Of a DNA stretch of 35,399 nucleotides, positions 16,976 through 33,840 are shown piece by piece (within the stretch, counting starts at the first letter, position 1; every line of letters starts with the position of its first letter). This DNA comes from Bacteroidota bacterium (GTDB lineage: Bacteria; Bacteroidota; Bacteroidia; Chitinophagales; LD1): NCBI GenBank assembly GCA_947478005.1, contig CANJVG010000025.1:1-35399 (forward strand). Direction: 5' to 3'. The notes beneath the pieces were generated by a model, which did not search any database, was not told where the DNA came from, and saw nothing but the letters and a program-made list of their open reading frames with translations. Position numbers and translations under genes: made by a program.

Positions 16976-18814
16976 TTACTCTAAACAATAGTCATATTTT
17001 TCCATCCACATGCTCAAATTGAGCAATGCCCATGTTTGATTGTTGTCCAGATAATAAAAGTTTGAAACAACATCATAATTAAGTACTGAAAAGATTTTTT
17101 TATCCCTATTCCTCAGATATTTCTCTTTTAGAGAAACTACAGAATTAACACTCAGCCACTCATTTACGGCAGCTGCAAATCCTTGCTTTTTTCTTTTTCT
17201 AATTTCGTTCGTCCAAAGGTAACCACAGGTCTCTCTTAGCAATATCTTTTCAGTGGTACTGTTCATTTTAAACTTAGAAGGTAATGAAATGCAAAATTCT
17301 GCGAAGTTTTTGTCAAGAAATGGTGCACGTAGTTCCAGTCCGTTTGCCATTGACGCCCTATCCGTTTTTACGAGAATATCTCCTACCATATAGTTTGTCA
17401 AATCCTCATTAAGTATTGTGTTTAGGTCTTGTGCAACTTTGCAATCATTTTTTTTATTTTCGGAAGAGGGAGTTTTAAAAAGACTAGCAATTTCGCTAGC
17501 CTTGAAATAGTCCTTTTGATTTTCATGCAATTGAAAGACATCATCAAAATGACCTTTGTCATTAAACCCTTCAACCTGCTGATGATAATAATCGTGTTGA
17601 GACGATTTTAACCTGTAACTAATGCTTCTCATCAGCATATAGTAATAAACCAACGCGTCCGGCTCTCTCACTGCTTTTTCAAATTGAAATAATCTGCGGT
17701 ACCAAAAATTATAACCAGCCATAAGTTCGTCACAACCGTCACCCGTTAAAACAACCTTCCCATATTTACTTGCCAGTTTTGAGATTAAATAAGTAGGAAT
17801 ATTTGAGGAATCGGCAAATGGCTCATCATAGATACAATGCATATGCATTAATATTTCAGCAATGTCAAACTCCTTCTCTTCCAGAATAATGTGGTTCGTG
17901 TTATACTTCTTTGCAATCTGCTCCGCATATTTTAACTCGCTCTTATCACCTTCAAATCCAAAAGTGAAAGTTGTGAGATTGTCTTTGTATTTTGAAGCAA
18001 TAGCTACAATAGTACTTGAATCCAATCCTCCACTTAAAAAAGCTGCCACTGGCACATCTGCCACTAACTGGTTTTGCACCGCTGTATCGAGTAGCTTAAC
18101 AAATTTTCCTTTTGCCTCCTCAAAAGAGATTTGTTGATTTGCTTTTGGTAAATCCCAATATCGCCAACGTTTAATTTCTCCGTTCTCAAAACTTAGTGCA
18201 TGAGCGGGAGGAAGAGTAAAAATATTTTTAAAAATTGTTTTCTGTGGATGCACATACAGTCTGCGTAAATAATATTCTACACTACGAGTATCAAGAACAG
18301 GCCTAACTAAGCCAGAGGAAAGAATAGCTTTCATTTCAGAAGCAAAAACAAACTCTCCGTTTTTTCCAATCGCATAGTATAAAGGCTTTTCCCCAAATCG
18401 ATCGCGTGCTACAAAAAGCTTCTTTCTTTTTTCATCCCAAATAGAAAAGGCAAACATACCAGGCAATTCACCTAACATTTTTTCACCATTTCGTTGATAC
18501 ATTGCAAGCAACAATTCCGTATCTGAATGAGTTACAAATTTGTAATCAGCATAATTTGCCTTGATACTTTTATACCCATAAATTTCTCCATTAAACACAA
18601 CGACATTTTCCGAACCCGCTTCTTTCATTGGCTGTTTTCCATCCACCAAATCCACAATTGAAAGTCGAGCATGACCAAAACAAAAATCATTTCCGGTGTA
18701 AGTGGTTTGCGCATCAGGGCCCCGATGTGCAATTTTTTGAATCATGCTCTTAACCAGCAATGAATATTTTTCTGCTTCTAAATTCGGTTTTACAATTCCG
18801 GCTATTCCACACAT
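16976..18814 (-). CDS. asnB: Glutamine-dependent asparagine synthase-like amidotransferase
   Basis: 612 residues with two domains. The N-terminal class II glutaminase has the nucleophile Cys2 (MCGIAGI), IAHRGPD, VVFNGEIY (82-89 region) and DTELLL. The C-terminal synthetase has the PPi loop SGGLDSS (261-267), FTFGFEG and LTGDGCDELMAGY. Members inside O-antigen/capsule loci (such as WbpS-type proteins) are thought to amidate uronic acid sugars rather than make asparagine, so glycan amidation is the contextual guess; free asparagine synthesis is the alternative. It is flanked by GT2 genes with 5- and 9-bp gaps. A second gene of the same family begins at the right window edge. Confidence 0.88.
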   Translation of the reverse strand: MCGIAGIVKPNLEAEKYSLLVKSMIQKIAHRGPDAQTTYTGNDFCFGHARLSIVDLVDGKQPMKEAGSENVVVFNGEIYGYKSIKANYADYKFVTHSDTELLLAMYQRNGEKMLGELPGMFAFSIWDEKRKKLFVARDRFGEKPLYYAIGKNGEFVFASEMKAILSSGLVRPVLDTRSVEYYLRRLYVHPQKTIFKNIFTLPPAHALSFENGEIKRWRYWDLPKANQQISFEEAKGKFVKLLDTAVQNQLVADVPVAAFLSGGLDSSTIVAIASKYKDNLTTFTFGFEGDKSELKYAEQIAKKYNTNHIILEEKEFDIAEILMHMHCIYDEPFADSSNIPTYLISKLASKYGKVVLTGDGCDELMAGYNFWYRRLFQFEKAVREPDALVYYYMLMRSISYRLKSSQHDYYHQQVEGFNDKGHFDDVFQLHENQKDYFKASEIASLFKTPSSENKKNDCKVAQDLNTILNEDLTNYMVGDILVKTDRASMANGLELRAPFLDKNFAEFCISLPSKFKMNSTTEKILLRETCGYLWTNEIRKRKKQGFAAAVNEWLSVNSVVSLKEKYLRNRDKKIFSVLNYDVVSNFYYLDNNQTWALLNLSMWMEKYDYCLE

Positions 18815-18823
18815 GGATCAATA

Positions 18824-19756
18824 TTATTTATTTCCTGCTATTGATTTTAAAAATCCTACAAAGCGCTGAAAATAGTTTCCTAAAGGCATGCTGTATAACA
18901 ACAAAACTATTCTCGCTTTGTTTTTGGGGTCAAAGGGATAACGAAACAGGTAACGCAAAATAGCGCGATTCATTTTTTTAGTTTCGCCCAACTGTTCCCA
19001 TACCATAATATACTGACTATCAAAGCTGAGTTGAATTTTTCTTTTGAACCTTCTTGAGATTTTTCCTTTCAATTCAGGATTAGCAAAAATAAGTTCCATC
19101 GCTTCTACCTGTGGCGTGATATATTCTTTGAACTGAAATTTAGTGCTTGCTGCGTGAATGAAAATTTCAAGCGTTACCTCAGGTATTTGTACCAAAGGGT
19201 ATTCATTCGTGATTCGAGTGTTCAACTCCACATCTTCATTAACTCTAAGAGAAGTATTGAATTTGTGCTTTTGCAAAATTTCACGTGGTAAACATTGCGA
19301 AGGAGGACCTACCTGATTTTTGATAACATATTCTACAGGATTTTGGTTTTCGGGAGATGGCAACAAAACATCCATTCTTCTGCCATCATCATAACACCAC
19401 CGCATTACAGTGAAATAAAGGGCGGGCTTAAAATCATTTTTCTTTACGGCATCAAACATTGTTTGCAAGTGGTGCGGAAGCCAAACATCATCACTATCCA
19501 AAAAACAAACAAACCGGCCATTAGCTTTTGAAATACCCTTGTTTCGAGCAGCACTTCTTTCTGTATTTTGTTGATAAAAATATTTTATCCTGATATCATT
19601 AAAGCTGCTAACGATGTCAGCTGTGTTATCTGTACTCCCATCATCAATAACAAGCAGTTCCCAGTCACCAAAACTTTGCACTATTACGGAACTAATAGCA
19701 CCAGTTATTAAATGTGCGCGATTGTATGTGGGAATGATAACTGAGAAAAAGGGCAT
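18824..19756 (-). CDS. GT2-family glycosyltransferase
   Basis: 310 residues from the ATG at 19754-19756. A GTG two codons upstream (19760-19762) is possible but adds only two residues. Motifs: FFSVIIPTYNRAHLITGAISS, VIDDGSTDNT, ERSAARNKGIS, CFLDSDDVWLP. It is a paralogue of the GT2 at 14952-15893 (nearly identical order of the PTYNR, DDGSTDNT, ER-AARN-G and CFLDSDD blocks). A TATTTTTG element that fits the TAnnTTTG -7 consensus lies at 19767-19774 on the minus strand, 10 bp before the ATG, so this may be the first gene of the minus-strand run. The gene is divergent from the epimerase. Confidence 0.9.
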   Translation of the reverse strand: MPFFSVIIPTYNRAHLITGAISSVIVQSFGDWELLVIDDGSTDNTADIVSSFNDIRIKYFYQQNTERSAARNKGISKANGRFVCFLDSDDVWLPHHLQTMFDAVKKNDFKPALYFTVMRWCYDDGRRMDVLLPSPENQNPVEYVIKNQVGPPSQCLPREILQKHKFNTSLRVNEDVELNTRITNEYPLVQIPEVTLEIFIHAASTKFQFKEYITPQVEAMELIFANPELKGKISRRFKRKIQLSFDSQYIMVWEQLGETKKMNRAILRYLFRYPFDPKNKARIVLLLYSMPLGNYFQRFVGFLKSIAGNK

Positions 19757-19823
19757 TTTCACCGTTCAAAAATAAATGTTTTTTTTGCCCTGTAAAGCTT
19801 CACGCTATTTAATCTATAAGAAA

Positions 19824-20795
19824 ATGAAATCAGTTTTGGTAACAGGATGCGCGGGATTTATAGGCAGTACCTTGTCCGAGAAATTATTAGCCACTGGTTT
19901 TAGCGTCATCGGCATTGATAATTTCGACCCATTCTATCCTCGTCCGGTGAAAGAAAATAATTTAAAAACCTGTTTGTCAAACCCGTCCTTTAAATTTTAT
20001 GAAGGAGATATTTCTAATGCACTGGTATTAAATTCTATCAAAGAAACCGTTCATGCAGTCGTCCACATTGCAGCAAAAGCAGGTGTTCGTCCATCTATTT
20101 ACAATCCTCATACATACATACAGGCGAATATTGTTGGAACACAAAATATTCTAGATTGGATGAATAAACGCGAATTAAAAAAAATAATATTCGCTTCTTC
20201 GTCTTCTGTTTATGGCAATGACACACTGGTTCCTTTTTCAGAATCAGCTAACGTTGACCATCCTATTTCCCCTTATGCTTTTACGAAAAAAGCCTGTGAG
20301 CTACTCAATCATACGTATCATTACTTATATAATTTCGACATTATAAATCTGCGATTCTTTACCGTCTACGGTGAGCGCCAACGGCCCGATTTAGCAATAC
20401 ATAAATTTGTAGATGCCATTTCTAAAAAACAGCCTGTAACAATGTATGGCGCGGGCGATACCTCCCGAGATTATACTTATGTGCAAGATACCGTAGTCGG
20501 AATTACCGGTGCATTAAACTATGTTTCAGAAAACAAAAATGTTTTTGAGATTGTAAACTTAGGAAACAGCAAACCTATTTCGTTGAAAGAATTAGTGGAA
20601 ACCATATATGAATTAATGGGAGAAGAACCAAATATTCTTTACGAGATAAAACAACCAGGTGATGTGGATGTAACATTTGCTGACATCTCAAAAGCAAGAC
20701 GACTATTCGGCTATAATCCAGAAACAAGTATACGCGATGGATTACAAAATTTCATTGCTTGGTATAAAACTCAACAAACTGAGGAGTATCGGTAG
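19824..20795 (+). CDS. NAD-dependent nucleotide-sugar epimerase, UDP-glucuronate 4-epimerase-like
   Basis: 323 residues from the ATG at 19824; an earlier in-frame ATG at 19776 would add 16 residues before the Rossmann strand and is less likely. This is an extended SDR: VTGCAGFIGS (6-15), GDI, HIAAKAGVRPS (81-91), the serine triad region ASSSSVYG (124-131), and the catalytic Y151-x3-K155 in SPYAFTKK. VGIDNFDPFYP-like spacing and FFTVYGERQRPDLAIHKF are typical of UDP-glucuronate 4-epimerases (capsule protein I type), giving UDP-galacturonate, but UDP-Glc/GlcNAc epimerases are not excluded. It is on the plus strand with the dioxygenase gene 45 bp downstream, forming a two-gene unit opposite to the surrounding genes. 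Confidence 0.82.
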   Translation: MKSVLVTGCAGFIGSTLSEKLLATGFSVIGIDNFDPFYPRPVKENNLKTCLSNPSFKFYEGDISNALVLNSIKETVHAVVHIAAKAGVRPSIYNPHTYIQANIVGTQNILDWMNKRELKKIIFASSSSVYGNDTLVPFSESANVDHPISPYAFTKKACELLNHTYHYLYNFDIINLRFFTVYGERQRPDLAIHKFVDAISKKQPVTMYGAGDTSRDYTYVQDTVVGITGALNYVSENKNVFEIVNLGNSKPISLKELVETIYELMGEEPNILYEIKQPGDVDVTFADISKARRLFGYNPETSIRDGLQNFIAWYKTQQTEEYR

Positions 20796-20840: not shown

Positions 20841-21614
20841 GTGGAATTTTTTACTGCTGTACCATTTACCAATGCCGAAGAAACAGCTTGGAACATTAAA
20901 TCTGCTTTAGCAAAAACCAAGGTCGTTCAATTATTGTCAGCGCCACCCGAAATTGACATGAAGCAATTTTTTGAAGGGCTTGCTGACAGCATCGGCAACT
21001 ACTATGACGTGAATGAAGATTTAGAAACCGGGGGTATTCAGGAAGGCAGATGGATTGATATTACGTACGACCCGAAAGTGCCCAACCGTTACCGTTCAAG
21101 CAATACACGTCAGCCGTTGCACACCGATGCCTCCTATTATCCTATTGACAACAACATTCAATATTTCTATTGCGCCTCACACGCTTACCTAGGCGGTGCG
21201 ACTACCTTCATTGATACCAGATTACTGGTTGAGTCTATGTTGATAGATGGTCGCGAAGATTTGTTGAATCGTTTGCAGCAAACACCTGTTCACTTTTCAA
21301 AGTTTGTGCGCCACAAAATCAAGCCGATTTTTGTGCAGGATGGAGACGATTGGAGAGTAAATTTCAATTATTACTGTCTCGATAAAAATATTTCGCCTGA
21401 AGCAAAAGCACTGGCCGATGAGTTTTTTGAATTTCTGGAAACCAGAATTCAGAACGCAGGATTGTTCACGCCAGTAAATTTGCAAAGACGCGAAGCGGTA
21501 TTTTTTCACGATGAAAAAGTAATGCACGGTCGCAATGCATTTTTTGCGCGTACACCTGCTGAGCGCAGCCTTATCAAGGGTACCATTATAGAATGGGAAA
21601 ACCGCTTAGGCTAA
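20841..21614 (+). CDS. TauD/TfdA-like Fe(II)/2-oxoglutarate-dependent dioxygenase
   Basis: 257 residues with a GTG start at 20841; the frame is open only to 20811 upstream and has no ATG before Met40, so GTG is the best start. The facial triad is visible: H94-T-D96 in QPLHTDASYYP and H229 in VMHGRNAFF, with R242 (ERSLIKG) as the likely 2-oxoglutarate carboxylate ligand 13 residues later, the spacing seen in TauD-type enzymes. GGATTFIDTR supports the jelly-roll fold. Such enzymes hydroxylate or oxidatively trim small molecules. Finding one in a glycan cluster, paired with an epimerase on the opposite strand to its neighbours, suggests oxidation of a sugar or sugar substituent, but the substrate is unknown. 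Confidence 0.82.
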   Translation: MEFFTAVPFTNAEETAWNIKSALAKTKVVQLLSAPPEIDMKQFFEGLADSIGNYYDVNEDLETGGIQEGRWIDITYDPKVPNRYRSSNTRQPLHTDASYYPIDNNIQYFYCASHAYLGGATTFIDTRLLVESMLIDGREDLLNRLQQTPVHFSKFVRHKIKPIFVQDGDDWRVNFNYYCLDKNISPEAKALADEFFEFLETRIQNAGLFTPVNLQRREAVFFHDEKVMHGRNAFFARTPAERSLIKGTIIEWENRLG

Positions 21615-21643
21615 GTTCGAATTATATCCGTCAATAGTTAGCG

Positions 21644-22657
21644 CTACGATTGGTTTAACACGGTCACGTTTTTATAAACCGTTTCAAACAATTGCGAGTA
21701 CTTTTCTTTTAGTCGCCATAACTCGCTGACCTCTCCCCTCATTCCATAGTAGCGCAACACATCTTCGTTGCCTTCTTCTTTCATTTTACCCACCACTTTG
21801 GGATAAAACTTTAGCAGCGCTTTTGATCTATGAATCAAGGTATCTAACCAAAAAGGCAATCGCAGATTTTGATTCGGCACCCCTTGGTTTGCTTCCACAT
21901 ACTGATAGGCCTGCATGTAAATATTGGTTCTTCCAAAACCGAAATACAGCTTCTTCAAATAATCCCAATTCATTCTGCCGGTGGTCATCAGGTGTTTAAA
22001 TTTTAAATCGCGGCAGTACCAAACCTCTTTTCCAAAATAGCGCGCCAGATAACACCACTCCGTATCACCACCTGAAATCAACTGCCCTCCAATTCTGTCA
22101 GAAAGCACATTCTGGATTCCTGACCCGAAAAGCTGCTGAAGAAAGGATTTGCGCACGGCAAACCCTGCCCCATATACATCAGACACTTTCGATAAATTTT
22201 CTTTGGTAGAAGACTGGTCGCCAACCGCAAAATTCAGTTCCAGTTTTTTAAACCATGTTGGCTCCTTGCCTTCAAAAACAGCCTCTCCCAAGCCTCCGAG
22301 TATCGCTATTTGCTTATTGGCCTGCATAATCTCAAAAGCCCTCTGCGCATAGTTTTCTGCCAGCCAGTTATCATCATCACAATAAAGCAGATAATCAAAT
22401 TTCGAAACCGAATATCCTTTTCGTCTGGCACTGGAAAGCCCAGCTGTAGTTTCCTTTACTACCTGAAACTGAATGGATGATTTCTGTAGAATCTCATTGG
22501 CCAGTTCAAAGGTATTATCGGTAGATGCGTTGTCCACTATAATCAATTCCCAACCAAAACTGTTCTGGGTTTTCTGCCGAACAACATGGCCGATAGTATC
22601 GTGCAGACGCTTAACGCTGTTATAGCAGCAAACAATAATCGAAACACCTGTGCTCAT
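21644..22657 (-). CDS. GT2-family glycosyltransferase
   Basis: 337 residues. VSIIVCCYNSVKRLHDTIGH, ELIIVDNASTDNT, AGLSSARRKGYS and LLYCDDDNWLA (D-x-D) define a GT2 enzyme. GAGFAVRKSFLQ and SGGDTEWCYLARYFG are the acceptor-side motifs common in Bacteroidetes GT2 proteins that carry an (E/D)D-W catalytic region. The C-terminal segment is basic and soluble. It overlaps the upstream GT2 gene by 4 bp (ATGA) and ends 29 bp from the convergent dioxygenase. Confidence 0.9.
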   Translation of the reverse strand: MSTGVSIIVCCYNSVKRLHDTIGHVVRQKTQNSFGWELIIVDNASTDNTFELANEILQKSSIQFQVVKETTAGLSSARRKGYSVSKFDYLLYCDDDNWLAENYAQRAFEIMQANKQIAILGGLGEAVFEGKEPTWFKKLELNFAVGDQSSTKENLSKVSDVYGAGFAVRKSFLQQLFGSGIQNVLSDRIGGQLISGGDTEWCYLARYFGKEVWYCRDLKFKHLMTTGRMNWDYLKKLYFGFGRTNIYMQAYQYVEANQGVPNQNLRLPFWLDTLIHRSKALLKFYPKVVGKMKEEGNEDVLRYYGMRGEVSELWRLKEKYSQLFETVYKNVTVLNQS

Positions 22658-23604
22658 TTTCCTGTTTTTAAAAACTTTCGGTAAAGGCTATAAACTTTGA
22701 GTGGAAGCATACCATTGATGACATAACCCTTCAAGAGATTCAAATGCTTCTTTGGTCGAATTTTAAGTAGGCCAAACAAGGCTTTTTTATAAGCATCCGA
22801 GCGAAGCGGGTTCCCCCGAATAATGCTCAGGTAATAAAACTCGATTTTGTCTTCCACCTCTTTATTAAACGAATAGTTCGAAAAAGCATTAAACTGATTC
22901 AACACAAACACCACATCAAACTCAAAGGCGTTTTGCCTGGTAGTCCAACTTACATACGAAATGCCTCCTTCATGAATTCTATAGCAACTCATCTTTTCCG
23001 CCATGTAGTAATAGTTGCCTTTAGAAGATAGCAGTAGATACATCAGAGTATCTATTGTCTTAATCCTTTTATCGGCCCATGGCGGAAAGGAAGGAAAGGC
23101 CGAGCGCCTGAAAACAACAGAGGCCGTTTGCAGAAAAATGCCCTTCGCCAAAAAATCGCGGATAGTAAAGACACCGCATCCGGGAAGGTGAAGCAGGTAA
23201 TCATTTTCTACCTTGCCTCCTTCTCTCACCACCTCCACATCGTGTGCCGCAAAAACATAGTCCTTGTTTTTATCCAATAAATCTACCTGCTTTTGCAGCT
23301 TATTTTCATCTGTCCAATAATCATCGCCCTCCAGTAGCGCAATGTATTCTCCCCGACAGGCAGCTATGCTGCTCACCCAGTTCAGCGTCATGCCCACGTT
23401 CTTTTCCAACACATTCAGCCGCACCTTGGCGGGGTGCTTGTCAGCAAAGTCCTTAATAATTTCAGCTGTGCCATCAATGGAACAATCATCGCTAATAACC
23501 AATTCCCAATCAAAATTGCAGTGCTGCATCAGCACGCTTTCCAGCGCCTGGGTCACATACTTTGCATGGTTATAAGTGATGAAACAAACACTGAGCTTTG
23601 GCAT
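22654..23604 (-). CDS. GT2-family glycosyltransferase
   Basis: 316 residues. LSVCFITYNHAKYVTQALES, ELVISDDCSIDGT, NVGMTLNW and ALLEGDDYWTDENKL are the standard blocks of the GT2 subgroup that includes many O-antigen enzymes with the EGDDYW signature. The ATG at 23604 is followed at once by the conserved first strand, so the start is firm. A near-consensus Bacteroidetes promoter sits immediately upstream (23609-23639). It is the first gene of a two-gene minus-strand unit whose second member overlaps by 4 bp. It borders the repeat-rich gap. Confidence 0.92.
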   Translation of the reverse strand: MPKLSVCFITYNHAKYVTQALESVLMQHCNFDWELVISDDCSIDGTAEIIKDFADKHPAKVRLNVLEKNVGMTLNWVSSIAACRGEYIALLEGDDYWTDENKLQKQVDLLDKNKDYVFAAHDVEVVREGGKVENDYLLHLPGCGVFTIRDFLAKGIFLQTASVVFRRSAFPSFPPWADKRIKTIDTLMYLLLSSKGNYYYMAEKMSCYRIHEGGISYVSWTTRQNAFEFDVVFVLNQFNAFSNYSFNKEVEDKIEFYYLSIIRGNPLRSDAYKKALFGLLKIRPKKHLNLLKGYVINGMLPLKVYSLYRKFLKTGK

Positions 23605-23608
23605 GGGA

Positions 23609-23639
23609 CAAATGTATAAGAGTAAAGGAGTTGTTCAAA
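23609..23639 (-). promoter_or_regulatory. Bacteroidetes-type promoter (TTTG-N19-TACATTTG)
   Basis: On the minus strand TTTG (23639-23636) is followed after exactly 19 nt by TACATTTG (23616-23609), a full match to the TTTG/TAnnTTTG -33/-7 pattern known from Bacteroides. Only 4 bases separate the -7 element from the GT2 ATG at 23604, so the transcript would be leaderless or nearly so. Confidence 0.55.
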
Positions 23640-23884
23640 TGACCGGACGCGGGCAGCAAACTGTCCTTAGAGAAGGACAGTTTGTTCATCTACCGCTTAC
23701 AAATGAGTTTCGGACAGTTACAAATATGTTTCGACCGTCTACAAATGAAATTCTACCACTTACAAATGAATTTCGAACGGTGACAAATGACTTGCGGAGG
23801 GTGACAAATAAGTTTCTACCGGTTGCAGTTGAGTTTCGGACAGGTTTGGTTGGTTTTTACCCTAAAGGGGTGATAGCTTGGTAG
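23639..23884 (+). CDS. Possible 81-residue heptapeptide-repeat protein
   Basis: No known family is recognised. The ATG at 23639 follows an AAAGGAG Shine-Dalgarno-like sequence by 8 nt. After about 20 residues come seven tandem heptapeptides that keep frame with a 21-bp DNA repeat: TNEFRTV, TNMFRPS, TNEILPL, TNEFRTV, TNDLRRV, TNKFLPV, AVEFRTG. Units 1 and 4 encode the same peptide yet differ at four bases, all synonymous, which hints at selection on protein. Against coding: the first two codons (ACA AAT) are invariant at DNA level in six units, there is no homologous domain, and the start overlaps the promoter of the opposite gene. The array may instead be a DNA-level repeat with an accidental open frame. 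Confidence 0.3.
   Translation: MTGRGQQTVLREGQFVHLPLTNEFRTVTNMFRPSTNEILPLTNEFRTVTNDLRRVTNKFLPVAVEFRTGLVGFYPKGVIAW
23657..23684. other. Perfect hairpin, 12-bp stem with AGAG loop
   Basis: CAAACTGTCCTT (23657-23668), loop AGAG, AAGGACAGTTTG (23673-23684). There is no following T-run on the plus strand and no plus-strand gene upstream to terminate. On the minus strand it lies upstream of the GT2 promoter. It could be an operator, an RNA structure in the leader of the small plus-strand frame, or a recombination remnant. Confidence 0.8.
23699..23845. repeat. Seven-unit 21-bp tandem array (ACAAATGARTTTCGNACGGTN-like)
   Basis: Units start at 23699, 23720, 23741, 23762, 23783, 23804 and 23825, each exactly 21 bp. 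ACAAAT opens the first six units without change; the seventh begins GCAGTT. The rest varies around GARTTTCGNACGGTN. The 21-bp period equals two helical turns and seven codons. It is not a CRISPR array: there are no spacers and units are adjacent. Confidence 0.9.
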
Positions 23885-23954
23885 ATGAAGAAGAGATTTA
23901 GATGGATTAGCAACCCCTTAATGGGTTGAACCTGTTTCTTATTTATTCTTCTCT

Positions 23955-23992
23955 CCTTTTGCCTTGATGCAAAAGGACCAAAAAATCAAGGC
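23955..23992. other. Two mutually exclusive 8-bp hairpins
   Basis: CCTTTTGC (23955-23962) pairs with GCAAAAGG (23969-23976) around a 6-nt loop. GCCTTGAT (23961-23968) pairs with ATCAAGGC (23985-23992) around a 16-nt loop. The two helices share bases 23961-23962 and the second uses the loop of the first, so both cannot form fully at once. The surrounding sequence looks like a dispersed Bacteroidetes intergenic repeat. Confidence 0.6.
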
Positions 23993-24052
23993 GGTGTGAC
24001 TTTTGGCTAAACAGCAATCCGACTGCGCAAACTCGCGCTTTATGATTTGACC

Positions 24053-24060
24053 TAATTTTG
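24053..24060 (+). promoter_or_regulatory. Possible -7 element (TAATTTTG)
   Basis: An exact match to TAnnTTTG on the plus strand, but without a TTTG at the expected -33 distance. If used, transcription would start near 24066 and run about 215 nt to the intrinsic terminator at 24257-24282. Confidence 0.25.
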
Positions 24061-24082
24061 AAGTGTGTGTTGCGTTCAAATA

Positions 24083-24268
24083 ATGCACAGTTTACTCACA
24101 TCATATTTATTTTCAAAGGAGTTCGTGAATCCATTTGCTATGTTTATTTTAAAGGAAGCAAATGGATTTGTAACGGCAATCGAATTACTGTTTTTAACAC
24201 CAAAATTCACAAGGCCGGGGATTGCGCTTCATCTTCTTAGAAATACAGGATATAATAAAGGTTGGTGA
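24083..24268 (+). CDS. Possible small protein of 61 residues, unknown
   Basis: A frame from the ATG at 24083 to a TGA at 24266-24268, whose stop lies inside the downstream terminator hairpin. The peptide is hydrophobic in its first two thirds (segments such as NPFAMFILKEANGF and AIELLFLTPKF) and ends LLRNTGYNKGW. No family is recognised. The alternative +1 frame is also open (60 codons from a TTG at 24058), so openness alone is weak evidence. The same segment contains a perfect 12-bp inverted repeat, so a non-coding RNA is equally possible. Confidence 0.22.
   Translation: MHSLLTSYLFSKEFVNPFAMFILKEANGFVTAIELLFLTPKFTRPGIALHLLRNTGYNKGW
24128..24168. other. Perfect 12-bp inverted repeat with 17-nt loop
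   Basis: AATCCATTTGCT (24128-24139) and AGCAAATGGATT (24157-24168) are perfect reverse complements. They lie between the possible promoter at 24053 and the terminator at 24257, so the stem could form in a short RNA. Confidence 0.75.
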
Positions 24269-24282
24269 GAGCCAACCTTTTT
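24257..24282 (+). terminator. Rho-independent terminator
   Basis: AAAGGTTGG (24257-24265), loop TGAGAG, CCAACCTTT (24272-24280) running into a five-T tract to 24282. A 9-bp perfect stem with a U-tail on the plus strand is a standard intrinsic terminator. No confident plus-strand gene precedes it, which implies a small RNA or small protein gene upstream, or a remnant. It stands 5 bp outside the left end of the IS5-family element. Confidence 0.75.
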
Positions 24283-24283
24283 G

Positions 24284-24305
24284 AATAGACCTCTTTCCTA
24301 ATTCA
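24284..24305 (+). repeat. Left terminal inverted repeat of the IS5-family element
   Basis: This 22-bp stretch (core GACCTCTTTCCTAATTCA from 24288) matches the reverse complement of 25198-25219 at 18 of 22 positions. TA flanks the element at 24286-24287 and 25216-25217, consistent with a 2-bp TA target duplication as in part of the IS5 family. Confidence 0.7.
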
Positions 24306-25215
24306 CAAGAGCGACTTGATAAGAAATAAGCGTAGATAAGCGTTTGGCGTTACGGAGTAGTTAAACTTCGGAATGAAATGGAAAAACGTTAAACAATTGA
24401 AGTCGGAACAGTTCAAAAGATTAGTAGGTGTAACCCGAAATACATTCGATACAATGGTATCGGAATATAAACGCCTGGTCCCTGTTTCCACCCATAAAAT
24501 ACCAGGTAAAAAGCGCGGTCCGAAAGCCACCTTACGAAAGGAGGATGAGTTATTAATGATGCTCCTGTATTATCGAGAGTACAGAACATTTTATCACATT
24601 GCCGGTGATTTCGCAATGAGTGAAACACAATGCTGGCGCATTGTTACTATCGCTGAAAAGCTACTCATTAAAAGTGGACTGTTTCATTTGCCGGGGAAGA
24701 AGAAATTAGCTGATGAGCAGATGGCATGGGAAGTGGTTTTGATAGACGCCTCGGAGCATAGCATCGAGCGACCTAAAAAAAACAGCGACAGTATTACTCC
24801 GGCAAAAAGAAAAAGCACACGCTCAAAACACAGTTAGTAGTAGACAAGCGAACACAATAAATTATTTGTATACAGGTAGGAAAAGGAAGAAGACACGACT
24901 TTCACCTCTATAAATCCAGTCAAGTGCATGTATATCCTGCCACAGAAATGATAGTAGATACCGGCTATCAAGGAATACAAAAATACATGCACAAACCCAA
25001 AAGCCACAAAAAGGAAGTAAGAAGAAACCGCTAACAAAAGAGGAGAAAAAAGTAAATCAGCAAATCAGTAGTGTTAGGGTAACCGTAGAGCATGTGATAA
25101 GAAAGGTGAAAGTCTTTAGAATCATGGCAGAACGATACCGAAATAGACGAAAGAGATTTGCACTGAAACTTAATCTTATTTGTGCCATCTACAACTTTCA
25201 ATTATCAAAGAGATC
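24288..25215 (+). mobile_element. IS5-family insertion sequence, degraded
   Basis: About 928 bp between imperfect terminal inverted repeats with TA at both borders, the size of IS427/IS1031-like members of the IS5 family. It contains one transposase coding region split by an A8 tract, a nonsense codon and a second A-tract frameshift, so it is unlikely to be autonomously active. Ends were set by aligning the inverted repeats (GACCTCTTT left, AAAGAGATC right). It separates the two minus-strand glycan operons. Confidence 0.75.
24775..24782 (+). promoter_or_regulatory. Slippery A8 tract, candidate -1 frameshift site (A AAA AAC)
   Basis: In the zero frame the codons are CCT AAA AAA AAC, giving the heptamer A_AAA_AAC, a classical -1 slippery sequence. 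Slipping back one base yields PKKKQRQYYSG, which restores the IS5-type transposase. Two-frame transposases with -1 shifting are known in IS5 subgroups. Confidence 0.5.
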
Positions 25216-25332: not shown

Positions 25333-26079
25333 CTAATTCTTATTCTTCCCTTTCTCCAGGTTTAGGCTCACATAAATTTTCTCGCCTGTTTCGGGATGTG
25401 TGAACCAGGCGTTTTTGTATTCGCCATGGGTGAGGGCGCGCAGGCGGTCAATGGCTTTGCCCATCGTCAGTTCCTCGTTGAGGTCTAACTGGCACAAAGC
25501 ATTAAAATCCTTTTTCAAATTGACATTGCCCTCCACTTCGGGCGTGATGGTTTGGTAGGTATTGTTGAGGATGGCGGGCAAATATGCATCTAGCAATTCG
25601 ATTTCAGCGTGCACAATCTTGTTGTAAACATCAATGGACGTTTCCCAAAGCTCGCCCGTTACTTTTTTCTGCGCAATAATGGCCCCGTGGTCGAGCTGCT
25701 CATCAATTTCGTGGATGGTGGCGCCAAACGGCAGACCATTTAAGATGGAAAACACCTGCGGAAACCAGCCGCGGTTGTAAGGATTATAGCCGGGGTGCAC
25801 ATTAATGCACTTCACGGCCTTCACCATTTCGGCAGGGAAGAGTTGTTTGCAGTGCAGGGAAATCACCAAATCATATTTCGCAATCACCTGCGGCCAATCC
25901 TGCTTGAGTGTAATGGCGGTTAGCTTCACGGGCAGCGAGGTGTTGTTCCGCAAACTAGTGTTGACCGCTGAGCAGTTATAATCTACGTGGAGACCCTCAT
26001 ACTTTTTTGCCAACGAGCAAAAGCCGTTGATGAGAAAAAAGTTGTCGGAGATGATGAGGATGTTTTTGTAGTGATACAT
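25333..26079 (-). CDS. vioF: VioF-like dTDP-4-amino-4,6-dideoxyglucose N-formyltransferase
   Basis: 248 residues of the formyltransferase fold. The catalytic triad is visible: N93 and H95 in CINVHPGYNPYNRGWFP and D130 in EQLDHGAII. The NVHPGYNPYNRGW signature with GLPFGATIHEIDE separates sugar N-formyltransferases from Met-tRNA formyltransferase, which has H-S-L-L-P and about 310 residues. The family transfers formyl from N10-formyl-THF to the 4-amino group of dTDP-Qui4N. It is the last gene of the minus-strand operon, 7 bp after the SGNH gene, and its aminotransferase partner (VioA-like) is in the same operon. A dTDP-Fuc4N or Qui3N formyltransferase is the alternative. Confidence 0.82.
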   Translation of the reverse strand: MYHYKNILIISDNFFLINGFCSLAKKYEGLHVDYNCSAVNTSLRNNTSLPVKLTAITLKQDWPQVIAKYDLVISLHCKQLFPAEMVKAVKCINVHPGYNPYNRGWFPQVFSILNGLPFGATIHEIDEQLDHGAIIAQKKVTGELWETSIDVYNKIVHAEIELLDAYLPAILNNTYQTITPEVEGNVNLKKDFNALCQLDLNEELTMGKAIDRLRALTHGEYKNAWFTHPETGEKIYVSLNLEKGKNKN

Positions 26080-30634: not shown

Positions 30635-31864
30635 TTAAGAAAGTTTCCAATTTAATTTGGGACGCACAGCTCCGGAGATATTTCCGAACCATTTTTCGTT
30701 CTCTCGATTGTCGAAAATTTCAAAATTTAAAACATTTTGAAAGTAGAAGAGGGTAATTGAACGCTGGCTTACTGCCATAATTGAAACGGTAAAATCTCCA
30801 CTGTTCATTAAGTCTGCGGGAACCAAACAACTTGCGACTACTCGCCCCCTTTTTGCGCTTACAACCGGTGAAACTGTATTGAAAATATGTTCCCCGGTAA
30901 TGGCAAACAGATTTAAACTATAACTGAATTCAGAATAGTCATTTTCTAAATCGAATTCGAACTGTAATTCAAATCCATGGTTGATATCTAAAATCTCCCC
31001 CTGCTGAATATGTAATTCGGCACGCCTTAGTTTCACAAGTTCGTTTCCTGGAGCTTCTTGTTCATTAAAAAGAATTTGAGAGTTGTATTGCGTGTTTCGC
31101 TTAAAGTAGGAATTGATAACCGCAGCGGGTTTTCCTATTTCGGCCACTTGTCCCTTTTCAAGCAGTACCACTTCCTGGCAAAGATTTTTTACTGCTTCCA
31201 TATTATGGCTCACGAACAAGACGGTTCTACCATGAGACGAAACGTCTTTCATTTTACCCAGACACTTCCGTTGAAAATCTGCATCGCCTACAGCTAAGAC
31301 TTCATCCACAATTAATATTTCGGGTTCGAGGTGGGCGGCTACGGCAAATGCTAATCGCACATACATTCCGCTGCTGTATCGCTTCACCGGGGTATCAATA
31401 AATTTTGATACTCCGCTAAACTCAACTATCTCATCAAACTTTCTTGCCACTTCCTTGTTGGTCATGCCCAAAATGGCCCCATTCAAAAATATATTCTCTC
31501 TGCCGGATAGTTCGGGATGAAAACCAGTGCCTACCTCCAGCAAACTGGCTAAGCGACCTTTCATTTTTACTTTGCCTGTAGTAGGTGCAGTAACACGCGA
31601 AAGGATTTTTAGCAAGGTGCTTTTTCCTGCTCCGTTCTTTCCAATGATGCCCAAAACCTGTCCTTGAGTAACATCAAAACTGACATCGCGTAAAGCAATA
31701 TGGATTGCCTTTTCGTCATAGGTTTCACCTATACGTAACAAGGGGTCCTCTTTGCCGGTCATGCGCGCAAACGCTCGTTGTATATCACTCGCGAGAGTGC
31801 CCGTGCCCATTTTACCGAGCTCGTACACTTTTGAAACATTTTCTACTTTAATAACGGTGCTCAA
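30635..31864 (-). CDS. wzt: Polysaccharide ABC exporter ATPase with C-terminal Wzt-type domain
   Basis: 409 residues. The nucleotide-binding domain has Walker A GKNGAGKST (75-83), the signature YSSGM (163-167) and Walker B ILIVDE (183-188), plus the long N-terminal extension typical of TagH/Wzt (residues 1-60). The last about 150 residues form a beta-rich domain (HGFELQFEFDLEND, SGDFTVSIMA) as in Wzt, where it binds the exported chain and often recognises a terminal modification. It pairs with the Wzm-like permease 9 bp upstream. It powers export of an undecaprenyl-linked glycan across the inner membrane. Confidence 0.93.
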   Translation of the reverse strand: MSTVIKVENVSKVYELGKMGTGTLASDIQRAFARMTGKEDPLLRIGETYDEKAIHIALRDVSFDVTQGQVLGIIGKNGAGKSTLLKILSRVTAPTTGKVKMKGRLASLLEVGTGFHPELSGRENIFLNGAILGMTNKEVARKFDEIVEFSGVSKFIDTPVKRYSSGMYVRLAFAVAAHLEPEILIVDEVLAVGDADFQRKCLGKMKDVSSHGRTVLFVSHNMEAVKNLCQEVVLLEKGQVAEIGKPAAVINSYFKRNTQYNSQILFNEQEAPGNELVKLRRAELHIQQGEILDINHGFELQFEFDLENDYSEFSYSLNLFAITGEHIFNTVSPVVSAKRGRVVASCLVPADLMNSGDFTVSIMAVSQRSITLFYFQNVLNFEIFDNRENEKWFGNISGAVRPKLNWKLS

Positions 31865-31873
31865 TTTCTTTGT

Positions 31874-32722
31874 TTAAACGGTATCCATAAAACTATTCTC
31901 AACTCTCCGAAACATCAAAACTCCCAAGATTAAAATACCGAAGGCAAATACGGTGCTGTATAAAATAGTCTCTATCGAAAAAGTTCCTTTACCCAAAAGC
32001 GCGCAACGGAAAACCTCCACTATCGGAGAAAGTGGATTTAACGAGGCGATTGCTTTAAATCTACCCGGAATTAACGAAAGAGGATAAATTACAGGAGTAG
32101 CATACATAGCCAATTGAACACCAAAGGCAATCAGGTAATTTAAGTCCCTATATTTTATTGTGAGCGATGAAACCAAAATACCCAGGCCCAAACCCATCAT
32201 AGCTAAAAGAAGGATTAGAAAGGGAATAGCAAGGATATAAATGGTGGGATGTATATTTTGACGATAGTAAATCAAAAAAGGAATGAGGAGCAAACACTGA
32301 ATTGCAAAGCTCATCAGATTTGAGATAATAACTGAGATTGGGATTACAAGACGCGGAAAATAAACCTTGCCGAAAATGCTGGCATTTCCAATGAATGTAT
32401 TTGAGGTCTTAATCAAACAAGAGGAGAAATAGTTCCAAAGTACTACACCAGTTAGAATAAAGAGGATACGTGGAATCTCGTCCGTGGGGACTTTTACGAT
32501 GGAAATAAACAGGGTGTAAACGGCCGTGGTAAAAAGGGGTTGTAAAAAATGCCAAAGCGGGCCGAGTACCGTTTGTTTGTAAACGGCAATAAAATCTCTT
32601 CGCACAAACAGCAATATCAAATCACGATATCGCCACAGTTCGCGTAAATTAAACTTGAATAGCCCTTCGGTGGGTTCAATTACCTGGGTCCAGTCTTCTC
32701 TGTTACTATCTAGGGCTGCCAT
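31874..32722 (-). CDS. wzm: Polysaccharide ABC exporter permease
   Basis: 282 residues, ABC-2 type with about six transmembrane segments. The N-terminal amphipathic region FNLRELWRYRDLILLFVRRDFIAVYKQTVLGPLWHFLQPL (about 23-62) is the hallmark of Wzm/TagG/KpsM-like permeases. IMGL-like and SLNPLSPIVEVFRCALLG (about 225-243) complete the fold. The partner ATPase gene follows at 9 bp. It is preceded by the VioA-like gene with a 26-bp gap. Substrate specificity cannot be read. Confidence 0.94.
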   Translation of the reverse strand: MAALDSNREDWTQVIEPTEGLFKFNLRELWRYRDLILLFVRRDFIAVYKQTVLGPLWHFLQPLFTTAVYTLFISIVKVPTDEIPRILFILTGVVLWNYFSSCLIKTSNTFIGNASIFGKVYFPRLVIPISVIISNLMSFAIQCLLLIPFLIYYRQNIHPTIYILAIPFLILLLAMMGLGLGILVSSLTIKYRDLNYLIAFGVQLAMYATPVIYPLSLIPGRFKAIASLNPLSPIVEVFRCALLGKGTFSIETILYSTVFAFGILILGVLMFRRVENSFMDTV

Positions 32723-32748: not shown

Positions 32749-33840
32749 TTAGGAATTAAAGCGCAGTACCTGACGCATAATCTGGCAAATGCGCCTTACC
32801 TGCTCTGTTTCCAGCTCATAATAAAGCGGTAGGCAGAGAACTCTCCCCGACACATCTGTGGTTATAGGCACATTGTGCGGCTTCACATAATTGACCGTTG
32901 AAAGAGGGGGATAGAAGTATCTACGTGGATGAATAAAATCTGCATGAAGAGATAAGACGACACTTTTTAAAACAGCCTCACTCTCAAATAAAATCGGGTA
33001 GTATGAATAATTGTATTCAGTTTCTGCGGGTATGGATGGTCGAGTAACATGCAAGTCATCTTGCAGCAAAAGTTCATCATAAAGCTCCGTAAGTTCCTTG
33101 CGCTTCCTTATTATCTCTTCCACATAAGGGAACACACACAAACCCATTGCCGCATGAAACTCTGAATTTTTCGCATTGATACCTACCCCCCAAAACTCTT
33201 CCTGCCCTTTGTGCCCGAAGTTGCGCATATAACTGAATTTATGTGCTGCCGTCTCATCATTGGTAACAATTCCTCCGCCTTCTGTTGTATGAAAAAGTTT
33301 GGTGGCATGGAAACTCAAGGTAGAAGCATCGCCATAATTTACCAATGGCTTGCCCTTGTATTTAACGCCAAAAGCATGAGCGGCATCGTAAATAATTTTC
33401 AGGTTGTGTTTTTTCGCAATTCTTTCAAGCGCTTCAACATCGCAAGGAATTCCATAGACGTGGGTGGCTAGAATACCGGTAGTTTTCGCAGTAATAAGCG
33501 CTTCTACTTTAGATGCATCAATAGTTAAAGTATTAATATCAATGTCAGCGAATACCGGTTCGCAATTTTCCCAAACGATAGAAGATGTGGTTGCAACGTA
33601 GGAAAACGGTGTGGTTATTATTTCACCGGTAAGGCCTAATCCTTTTATCGCAATCTGAATGGCGGACGTACCATTATTGAGAAAAACAAAATGCTTTGAC
33701 TCAAAATAAACTCTCAGCTTTTCTTCCAATTCAAGGAGTAGCGGCCCGTTATTGGTGAGGTGGGCTCGTTCCCAAATTCCTTTTAGATATTTTTCGTATT
33801 GCTCTGTTGGCGGGAGAAATGCGCGTGTAACATTTATCAT
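32749..33840 (-). CDS. vioA: VioA-like dTDP-4-amino-4,6-dideoxyglucose aminotransferase
   Basis: 363 residues, DegT/DnrJ/EryC1/StrS fold-type I PLP enzyme. FLPPTEQYEKYLKGIWER (8-25), LTNNGPLLLELEE (28-40), NNGTSAIQ (55-62), YDAAHAFGVKY (151-161, Asp152 to the PLP ring nitrogen) and SFHATKLFHTTEGGG (177-190, Schiff-base Lys181). The blocks follow VioA closely (LTNNG near the start, ITTPFSYVAT, DAAHAFGVKYKGK). It would transfer an amino group from glutamate to dTDP-4-keto-6-deoxyglucose to give dTDP-Qui4N, the substrate of the VioF-like enzyme at the other end of the operon. RffA/WecE (Fuc4N) or Qui3N-type aminotransferases are the alternatives. Confidence 0.85.
   Translation of the reverse strand: MINVTRAFLPPTEQYEKYLKGIWERAHLTNNGPLLLELEEKLRVYFESKHFVFLNNGTSAIQIAIKGLGLTGEIITTPFSYVATTSSIVWENCEPVFADIDINTLTIDASKVEALITAKTTGILATHVYGIPCDVEALERIAKKHNLKIIYDAAHAFGVKYKGKPLVNYGDASTLSFHATKLFHTTEGGGIVTNDETAAHKFSYMRNFGHKGQEEFWGVGINAKNSEFHAAMGLCVFPYVEEIIRKRKELTELYDELLLQDDLHVTRPSIPAETEYNYSYYPILFESEAVLKSVVLSLHADFIHPRRYFYPPLSTVNYVKPHNVPITTDVSGRVLCLPLYYELETEQVRRICQIMRQVLRFNS

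Follow-up and report, generated by a model that had tools for sequence, protein, structure and literature searches.

What could an oxygenase of the TauD/TfdA family, which depends on Fe(II) and 2-oxoglutarate (2OG), do among the genes for a bacterial surface glycan? This question is raised by a gene on a 35.4-kb stretch of DNA (hereafter called the window), which is a complete contig from the assembly of a freshwater Bacteroidota bacterium (4.0 Mb, 97% complete) whose near relatives originate from lake and reservoir metagenomes. The content of the window is mostly a glycan locus of the ABC-transporter type (Table 1). It comprises many GT2 and other glycosyltransferase genes, including GT25 and GT11, as well as genes for a polysaccharide deacetylase and a UDP-GlcNAc 2-epimerase-like protein, the latter assigned by sequence reading. 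The formyltransferase encoded in the locus implies that the glycan contains an N-formylated amino-dideoxy sugar. Moreover, the Wzt-like and DegT genes fall into the same clusters as the corresponding genes of another bacterial locus, L078, which itself carries a TauD gene. The glycan locus also contains a short ORF (23576-23884) made up of VTNEF-like repeats and a solitary HTH_Tnp_4 transposase fragment (24373-24837), and the region from 23576 to 24837 is likely an insertion-sequence remnant.

Table 1 Features of the window and viral contigs carrying relatives of its TauD gene
Feature	Position or locus	Strand	Basis
Asparagine-synthase-like amidotransferase	16976..18814	-	PF00733 and PF13537; TIGR01536 above cut-off
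GT2 glycosyltransferase, divergent from epimerase	18824..19762	-	PF00535, 114.3 bits
SDR sugar-nucleotide epimerase/dehydratase	19776..20795	+	PF16363/PF01370
TauD/TfdA-family Fe(II)/2OG oxygenase, 257 aa, GTG start	20841..21614	+	PF02668, 59.4 bits
Scar of 29 bp; spot occupied by AKR gene in three sisters	21615..21643		L004 alignment; L079, L080, L015
GT2 glycosyltransferase, convergent with TauD	21644..22657	-	PF00535, 83 bits
GT2 glycosyltransferase	22654..23604	-	PF00535, 89.9 bits
dTDP-4-amino-4,6-dideoxyglucose formyltransferase	25333..26079	-	NF005755, 310 bits vs cut-off 238
ABC-2 type export pair, Wzt-like	30635-31864	-	Role from sequence reading
ABC-2 type export pair, Wzm-like	31874-32722	-	Role from sequence reading
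DegT aminotransferase	32749-33840	-	PF01041, 290 bits
WbqC-TauD phage contigs	L100-L107, L114, L115, L118, L120		IMG/VR, 7.6-459 kb

The TauD gene of the window and its product

The TauD gene follows the epimerase gene at a distance of 45 bp. Both genes are located on the plus strand, the flanking genes are located on the minus strand and GT2 genes are present on either side of the pair, which agrees with the arrangement given in a preliminary description of this DNA. The two genes probably share one transcription unit. In the NCBIfam collection, the epimerase stayed below the cut-off of each of the specific equivalogs. The idea that the epimerase and the oxygenase form a recurring pair did not hold up, because the epimerase gene directly adjoins TauD only in the window and in three genomes of the same genus (L015, L079 and L080). 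Three loci of another family hold an epimerase of the same cluster somewhere, separate from TauD. Thus, a conserved epimerase-TauD unit was rejected.

The protein itself belongs to the TauD/TfdA family, as its score of 59.4 bits is well above the curated Pfam cut-off of 27 bits for PF02668. The active site that had been read from the sequence in the preliminary description was found to be intact. The metal ligands H94, D96 and H229 and the 2OG-binding arginine R242 are invariant in an alignment of 38 homologues, and they are still invariant among 55 relatives including phage and distant ones. R70, W71, Q91, N176, D224, R231 and K246 are also invariant or nearly so; for instance, R70 is conserved in 38/38 members of the close clade and K246 in 50/55 relatives. 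K246 is located four residues past R242, at a position that we take to be the site of the sulfonate-binding arginine of TauD, which would make it an arginine in TauD and a lysine in the window protein. Judged from their conservation, R70 and K246 could bind an anionic group, either a pyrophosphate, a carboxylate or a sulfonate. The E. coli TauD enzyme has the same HxD...H iron triad, a 2OG arginine 13 residues past the distal histidine and the double-stranded beta-helix. However, the identity is about 13%, and the relatives of the window protein are encoded together with an aldo-keto reductase (AKR), WbqC or glycosyltransferases rather than with a taurine importer.

An AlphaFold model of the window protein (pLDDT 82.8, pTM 0.85; 12-sequence alignment) adopts the TauD-type double-stranded beta-helix. 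Among the matches listed, the human gamma-butyrobetaine hydroxylase BBOX1 (Z 21) and TmpA (Z 20) have the most similar folds over 240 residues, with 17-18% identity, and both enzymes are also top profile matches; unlike these enzymes, the window protein lacks the N-terminal domain. The TauD structure 1gy9 aligned with a Z score of 17.9. A profile search of the PDB matched BBOX, DfmD, TtnM, PIsnB and TmpA, and the structural kinship extends to clavaminate synthase. A close solved relative was not found, the best single-sequence match in the PDB having an E value of 0.011. The substrates of the closest solved structures are amino acids, betaines or phosphonates, and none of them is a sugar. The sulfoquinovose-cleaving enzyme SqoD is absent among the fold matches listed, which says nothing about kinship.

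In the 97%-complete assembly, one TauD gene of this kind was found. Sister genomes carry relatives in the same place that are 92-95% identical, and dN/dS between these and the window gene is about 0.03-0.04, showing that the gene evolves under purifying selection. ATG is the aligned start codon in the relatives, and the window gene starts with GTG. The syntenic sister copies, the low dN/dS and the existence of copies that are 45-51% identical in other families argue against a chance ORF; indeed, a chance ORF and a pseudogene are both ruled out by the PF02668 score, the invariant residues and the dN/dS. An assignment as a carnitine or trimethyllysine (TML) dioxygenase was rejected as well because the scores are below the equivalog cut-offs (TIGR02409, 26.4 vs 414.75 bits; TIGR02410, 25.4 vs 268.3 bits). 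By its sequence features, the enzyme looks active.

An aldo-keto reductase partner and its absence from the window

In the cluster of close relatives, an AKR gene (PF00248) is located directly 3' of TauD in 30/39 loci. The three sister loci encode an AKR of 316 aa whose gene overlaps the TauD stop codon by 22 bp. The AKR catalytic residues D57, Y62, K88 and H130 show full or almost full conservation. The association is best documented in the family f11, in which the TauD copies are 41-51% identical to that of the window. Of its 222 genomes, 40 contain TauD and 35 the AKR, the two being found together in 34 (Fisher p about 1e-32, uncorrected for the kinship of the genomes). The co-occurrence is far beyond chance, even though related genomes are not independent of each other. 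A single genome has TauD and the AKR on different contigs, and another one has the AKR and lacks TauD. The pairwise distances of the two proteins are correlated (r = 0.92), a value that shared genome ancestry alone could produce. Moreover, TauD and AKR genes are adjacent again in a third family, f66, whose TauD is 39% identical to that of the window. On a tree of 55 TauD proteins, about eight changes in the presence of the AKR are required. The AKR scores far higher against IolS-type enzymes (86.8 bits) than against the structures 7bbz/7bby (36.7 bits), which presumably represent SmoB, the reductase of the sulfoquinovose (SQ) pathway.

In the window, the AKR gene is missing. An alignment with L004 sets the 29 bp between the TauD stop codon and the convergent GT2 gene of the window against an entire AKR gene, and the rest of the window assembly contains no AKR with more than 30% identity, the nearest one having 30%. 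Since the sister copies all retain the AKR, a loss on the branch leading to the window is the simplest reading; the absence may also be an artefact of the assembly or of strain mixture. The AKR is also missing from the phage copies and from part of the bacterial relatives in glycan loci, and thus the reductase is not required in all contexts. In the sister genome G401, the TauD gene (L015, 9717-10480) is frameshifted near codon 159 and the AKR gene is intact; the frameshift may reflect either an error in the assembly or genuine decay of the gene.

Genomic settings of the relatives in bacteria and viruses

TauD relatives recur in glycan loci of the Bacteroidota families f1, f10, f11 and f66 and on viral contigs. 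In f11, many loci have the order GT2-TauD-AKR-GT2 with all genes on one strand, and they often include a GH130-like gene and a second Fe/2OG oxygenase, either PhyH or an unclassified protein that matches 2OG-FeII weakly. The last GT2 of this arrangement has dolichol-P-mannose synthase and ArnC as its nearest matches, which makes the loading of a sugar onto a lipid carrier probable. According to a group profile, a GT2 gene related to the one at 22654..23604 is located at most five genes away from TauD in many relatives; for instance, in L017 and L016, whose TauD proteins are 33-35% identical to that of the window, a related GT2 gene is found one and three genes downstream. The f66 locus has the order DegT-WbqC-TauD-AKR-sulfotransferase-like-GT2, in which the sulfotransferase is our own reading. 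In L078, genes for a chain-length-determinant-like protein, Wzm, Wzt, DegT, a membrane protein and WbqC precede TauD, which is followed by genes for a hexapeptide transferase, a GH130-like protein, PhyH and a GT2. In L098, TauD overlaps a gene for a bacterial sugar transferase (Bac_transf PF02397, 202 bits). In glycan-type loci of this kind, such as L013, L014, L060, L073, L076 and L078, TauD and a GH130-like protein are often accompanied by one or two further Fe/2OG oxygenases of a distinct type, namely PhyH or the unclassified protein.

Other relatives are encoded elsewhere. The TauD genes of L071 and L069 adjoin ftsZ and parAB, respectively, and in the small-genome genus g175 the TauD-AKR pair adjoins a YdjC/amidase group in some cases and a sugar ABC importer in others. 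In four related genomes of the family f88 (L089-L092), a TauD gene whose product is 40% identical lies within a C39-peptidase ABC-exporter cluster, behind the genes for the exporter, a secretion-type membrane protein and an ATP-grasp protein whose C-terminal domain is of the L-amino-acid-ligase type. The cluster, which also holds several GT-like genes, looks like one of the peptide or natural-product type. In L062, L063 and L065, which have the order TauD-AKR-GT2, a TauE/SafE-type exporter is encoded on the opposite strand two genes past the AKR (PF01925 150 bits, L062). Because many close relatives are placed outside glycan loci, membership in such loci is frequent and not universal. Across the lineages, the setting of TauD that could be recognised most often is a glycan locus, and others exist.

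Viral TauD relatives were recovered only with an alignment as the query; scans of phage, plasmid and viral sequences with a single TauD sequence gave no match, the GenBank phage records gave no match to the TauD queries used and PHROGs held no family matching TauD or WbqC. On 12 of the 13 distinct viral contigs, which include three near-duplicate pairs, a WbqC gene is located one to three genes 5' of TauD, and on ten of these 12 contigs WbqC lies directly behind DegT. Four viral TauD contigs carry NeuB and/or a polysaccharide-pyruvyltransferase-like gene, and PhyH and hexapeptide-transferase genes occur in some of the viral glycan islands. The phage copies of TauD lack the AKR. The combination of WbqC and TauD, mostly with DegT, recurs in two bacterial loci, L094 and L078. 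The sole WbqC gene found in the window genome is located on a separate contig from TauD (G000:C123:2223-2921), where none of its neighbours could be recognised as a glycan gene. Our literature search found no described function for WbqC, which is a common protein family.

The preliminary description had proposed that the oxygenase modifies a glycan. This part of the proposal is strengthened by relatives in glycan loci of several families and of phages, and it is weakened by the many relatives outside such loci; a distribution in which homologues never occur in glycan loci was not observed. The proposal is therefore partly supported: the TauD subfamily has gained real support for acting on glycans, and the pairing with the epimerase is local.

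Candidate reactions of the TauD subfamily

The statement in the preliminary description that TauD/TfdA enzymes act on small molecules and are not a standard part of O-antigen clusters is reasonable as far as TauD is concerned. However, there are known Fe/2OG oxygenases that act on surface glycolipids, namely KdoO and LpxO. These enzymes belong to other Fe/2OG subfamilies than TauD, and we know of no AKR partner of either. In contrast to the reaction considered here, KdoO and LpxO hydroxylate a surface glycolipid at Kdo or at the lipid A acyl chains (PMC8533242, PMC10865791). We assign a probability of roughly 0.5 to the reading that the window gene encodes an active Fe(II)/2OG oxygenase of a TauD subfamily employed in the biosynthesis of surface or phage glycans, in which it would oxidise a sugar or its substituent. 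TauD would oxidise a single carbon, which would belong either to an activated or lipid-linked sugar or to the acyl or amino substituent of an amino sugar. The neighbouring DegT and WbqC genes suggest an amino-dideoxy sugar as the most likely substrate. In most relatives, the co-encoded AKR would then reduce the carbonyl product of TauD, and the net result would be an inverted or exchanged substituent.

Such oxidise-then-reduce editing of sugars is already established for an antibiotic and for the breakdown of sulfoquinovose. In kanamycin B, the carbon bearing the 2'-amine is converted to a ketone by KanJ, and KanK reduces the ketone (PMC5533434). In architecture, KanJ and KanK resemble the proposed pair, as an Fe/2OG dioxygenase acts first and an NADPH reductase second on an amino sugar; however, their substrate is a finished antibiotic, and the window lacks a reductase. 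The Fe/2OG alkanesulfonate dioxygenase SqoD releases sulfite by oxidising C6 of sulfoquinovose, and it works together with SquF (PMC12890257), an aldo-keto reductase (PF00248) that reduces 6-dehydroglucose (PMC9594981). Compared by enzyme type, most TauD relatives have an oxygenase-AKR pair, whereas the window has no AKR, and the SqoD/SquF pathway is catabolic. The tight link between TauD and the AKR suggests the same two-step logic as in KanJ/KanK and SqoD/SquF. As the AKR is missing, the two steps cannot take place in this form in the window, and the locus encodes the first step only. The oxidised sugar would either persist or be reduced by another enzyme, possibly the SDR encoded upstream. 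Our more specific proposal is tentative: the TauD subfamily and the AKR may form a sugar-editing module. In the surface glycans that aquatic Bacteroidota make, it would oxidise and then re-reduce a single position of an amino sugar in activated or lipid-linked form, so that the stereochemistry is changed or one substituent is exchanged for another. Phages would have a DegT-WbqC-TauD version of it, and the window, whose lineage would have dropped the reductase, may display the oxidised sugar.

Three other readings have to be weighed against the proposed glycan oxidation. The main rival is a desulfonation of the sulfo-ASDO type. Since SqoD and SquF are the same two enzyme types as TauD and the AKR (PMC12890257, PMC9594981), TauD might cleave the C-S bond of sulfoquinovose or of a similar sulfo-sugar and the AKR might reduce 6-dehydroglucose to glucose, the glycan setting being secondary. 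Anion binding by R70 and K246 is conceivable, and sugar importers are encoded near some of the relatives. The TauE/SafE-type exporter that a hydrophobicity scan revealed close to three TauD loci also fits, but it is on the opposite strand and in these three loci only, which is too little support. Moreover, a motif scan of the flanks found no signature of GH31, the sulfoquinovosidase family, the AKR is far nearer to the IolS-type enzymes than to 7bbz/7bby and the sulfo-ASDO pathway has been reported in Gammaproteobacteria (PMC13372026). As desulfonation would also leave the WbqC, DegT and GT2 neighbours and the phage copies unexplained, we regard it as unlikely.

A hydroxylase that acts on its own on a substituent of an amino sugar is rather unlikely, too. 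In that case, DegT would make the amine, WbqC would help to acylate it, TauD would hydroxylate the acyl or aminoacyl group and the AKR would be a later accessory. This would suit the phages, L094 and L078, which share WbqC and TauD, usually with DegT, the phage copies lacking the AKR, as well as the window locus with its DegT and amino-dideoxysugar formyltransferase, and amino-acid and betaine hydroxylases have the closest folds among the matches listed. However, the window contig is devoid of WbqC, the only copy in the genome being located elsewhere, and the link to the AKR is very tight in the clade nearest to the window. It appears quite improbable that TauD is an oxygenase for an amino acid, a betaine or a natural product that moves together with the AKR and has landed in a variable glycan region by accident. 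The patchy distribution of TauD, the many relatives in non-glycan settings, the clade in the C39-peptidase ABC-exporter/ATP-grasp cluster and the structural kin BBOX, TmpA and clavaminate synthase would be in line with this explanation, but hitchhiking is an unlikely source of the pattern, since relatives of differing degrees of divergence have independently come to lie next to glycosyltransferases, WbqC, DegT, Bac_transf and NeuB.

Our literature search found no paper on oxidise-then-reduce editing in a bacterial surface polysaccharide or in phage glycans, and a search for TauD, aldo-keto reductases and glycans together returned nothing on point. If the proposed oxidation and re-reduction of a glycan sugar by TauD and the AKR is true, it would represent a new route to O-antigen and capsule diversity, and it would explain why the gene pair recurs in several Bacteroidota families. 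Moreover, it would provide a handle on what WbqC does, and the strain that has lost the AKR would offer a natural experiment to reveal what the second step contributes.
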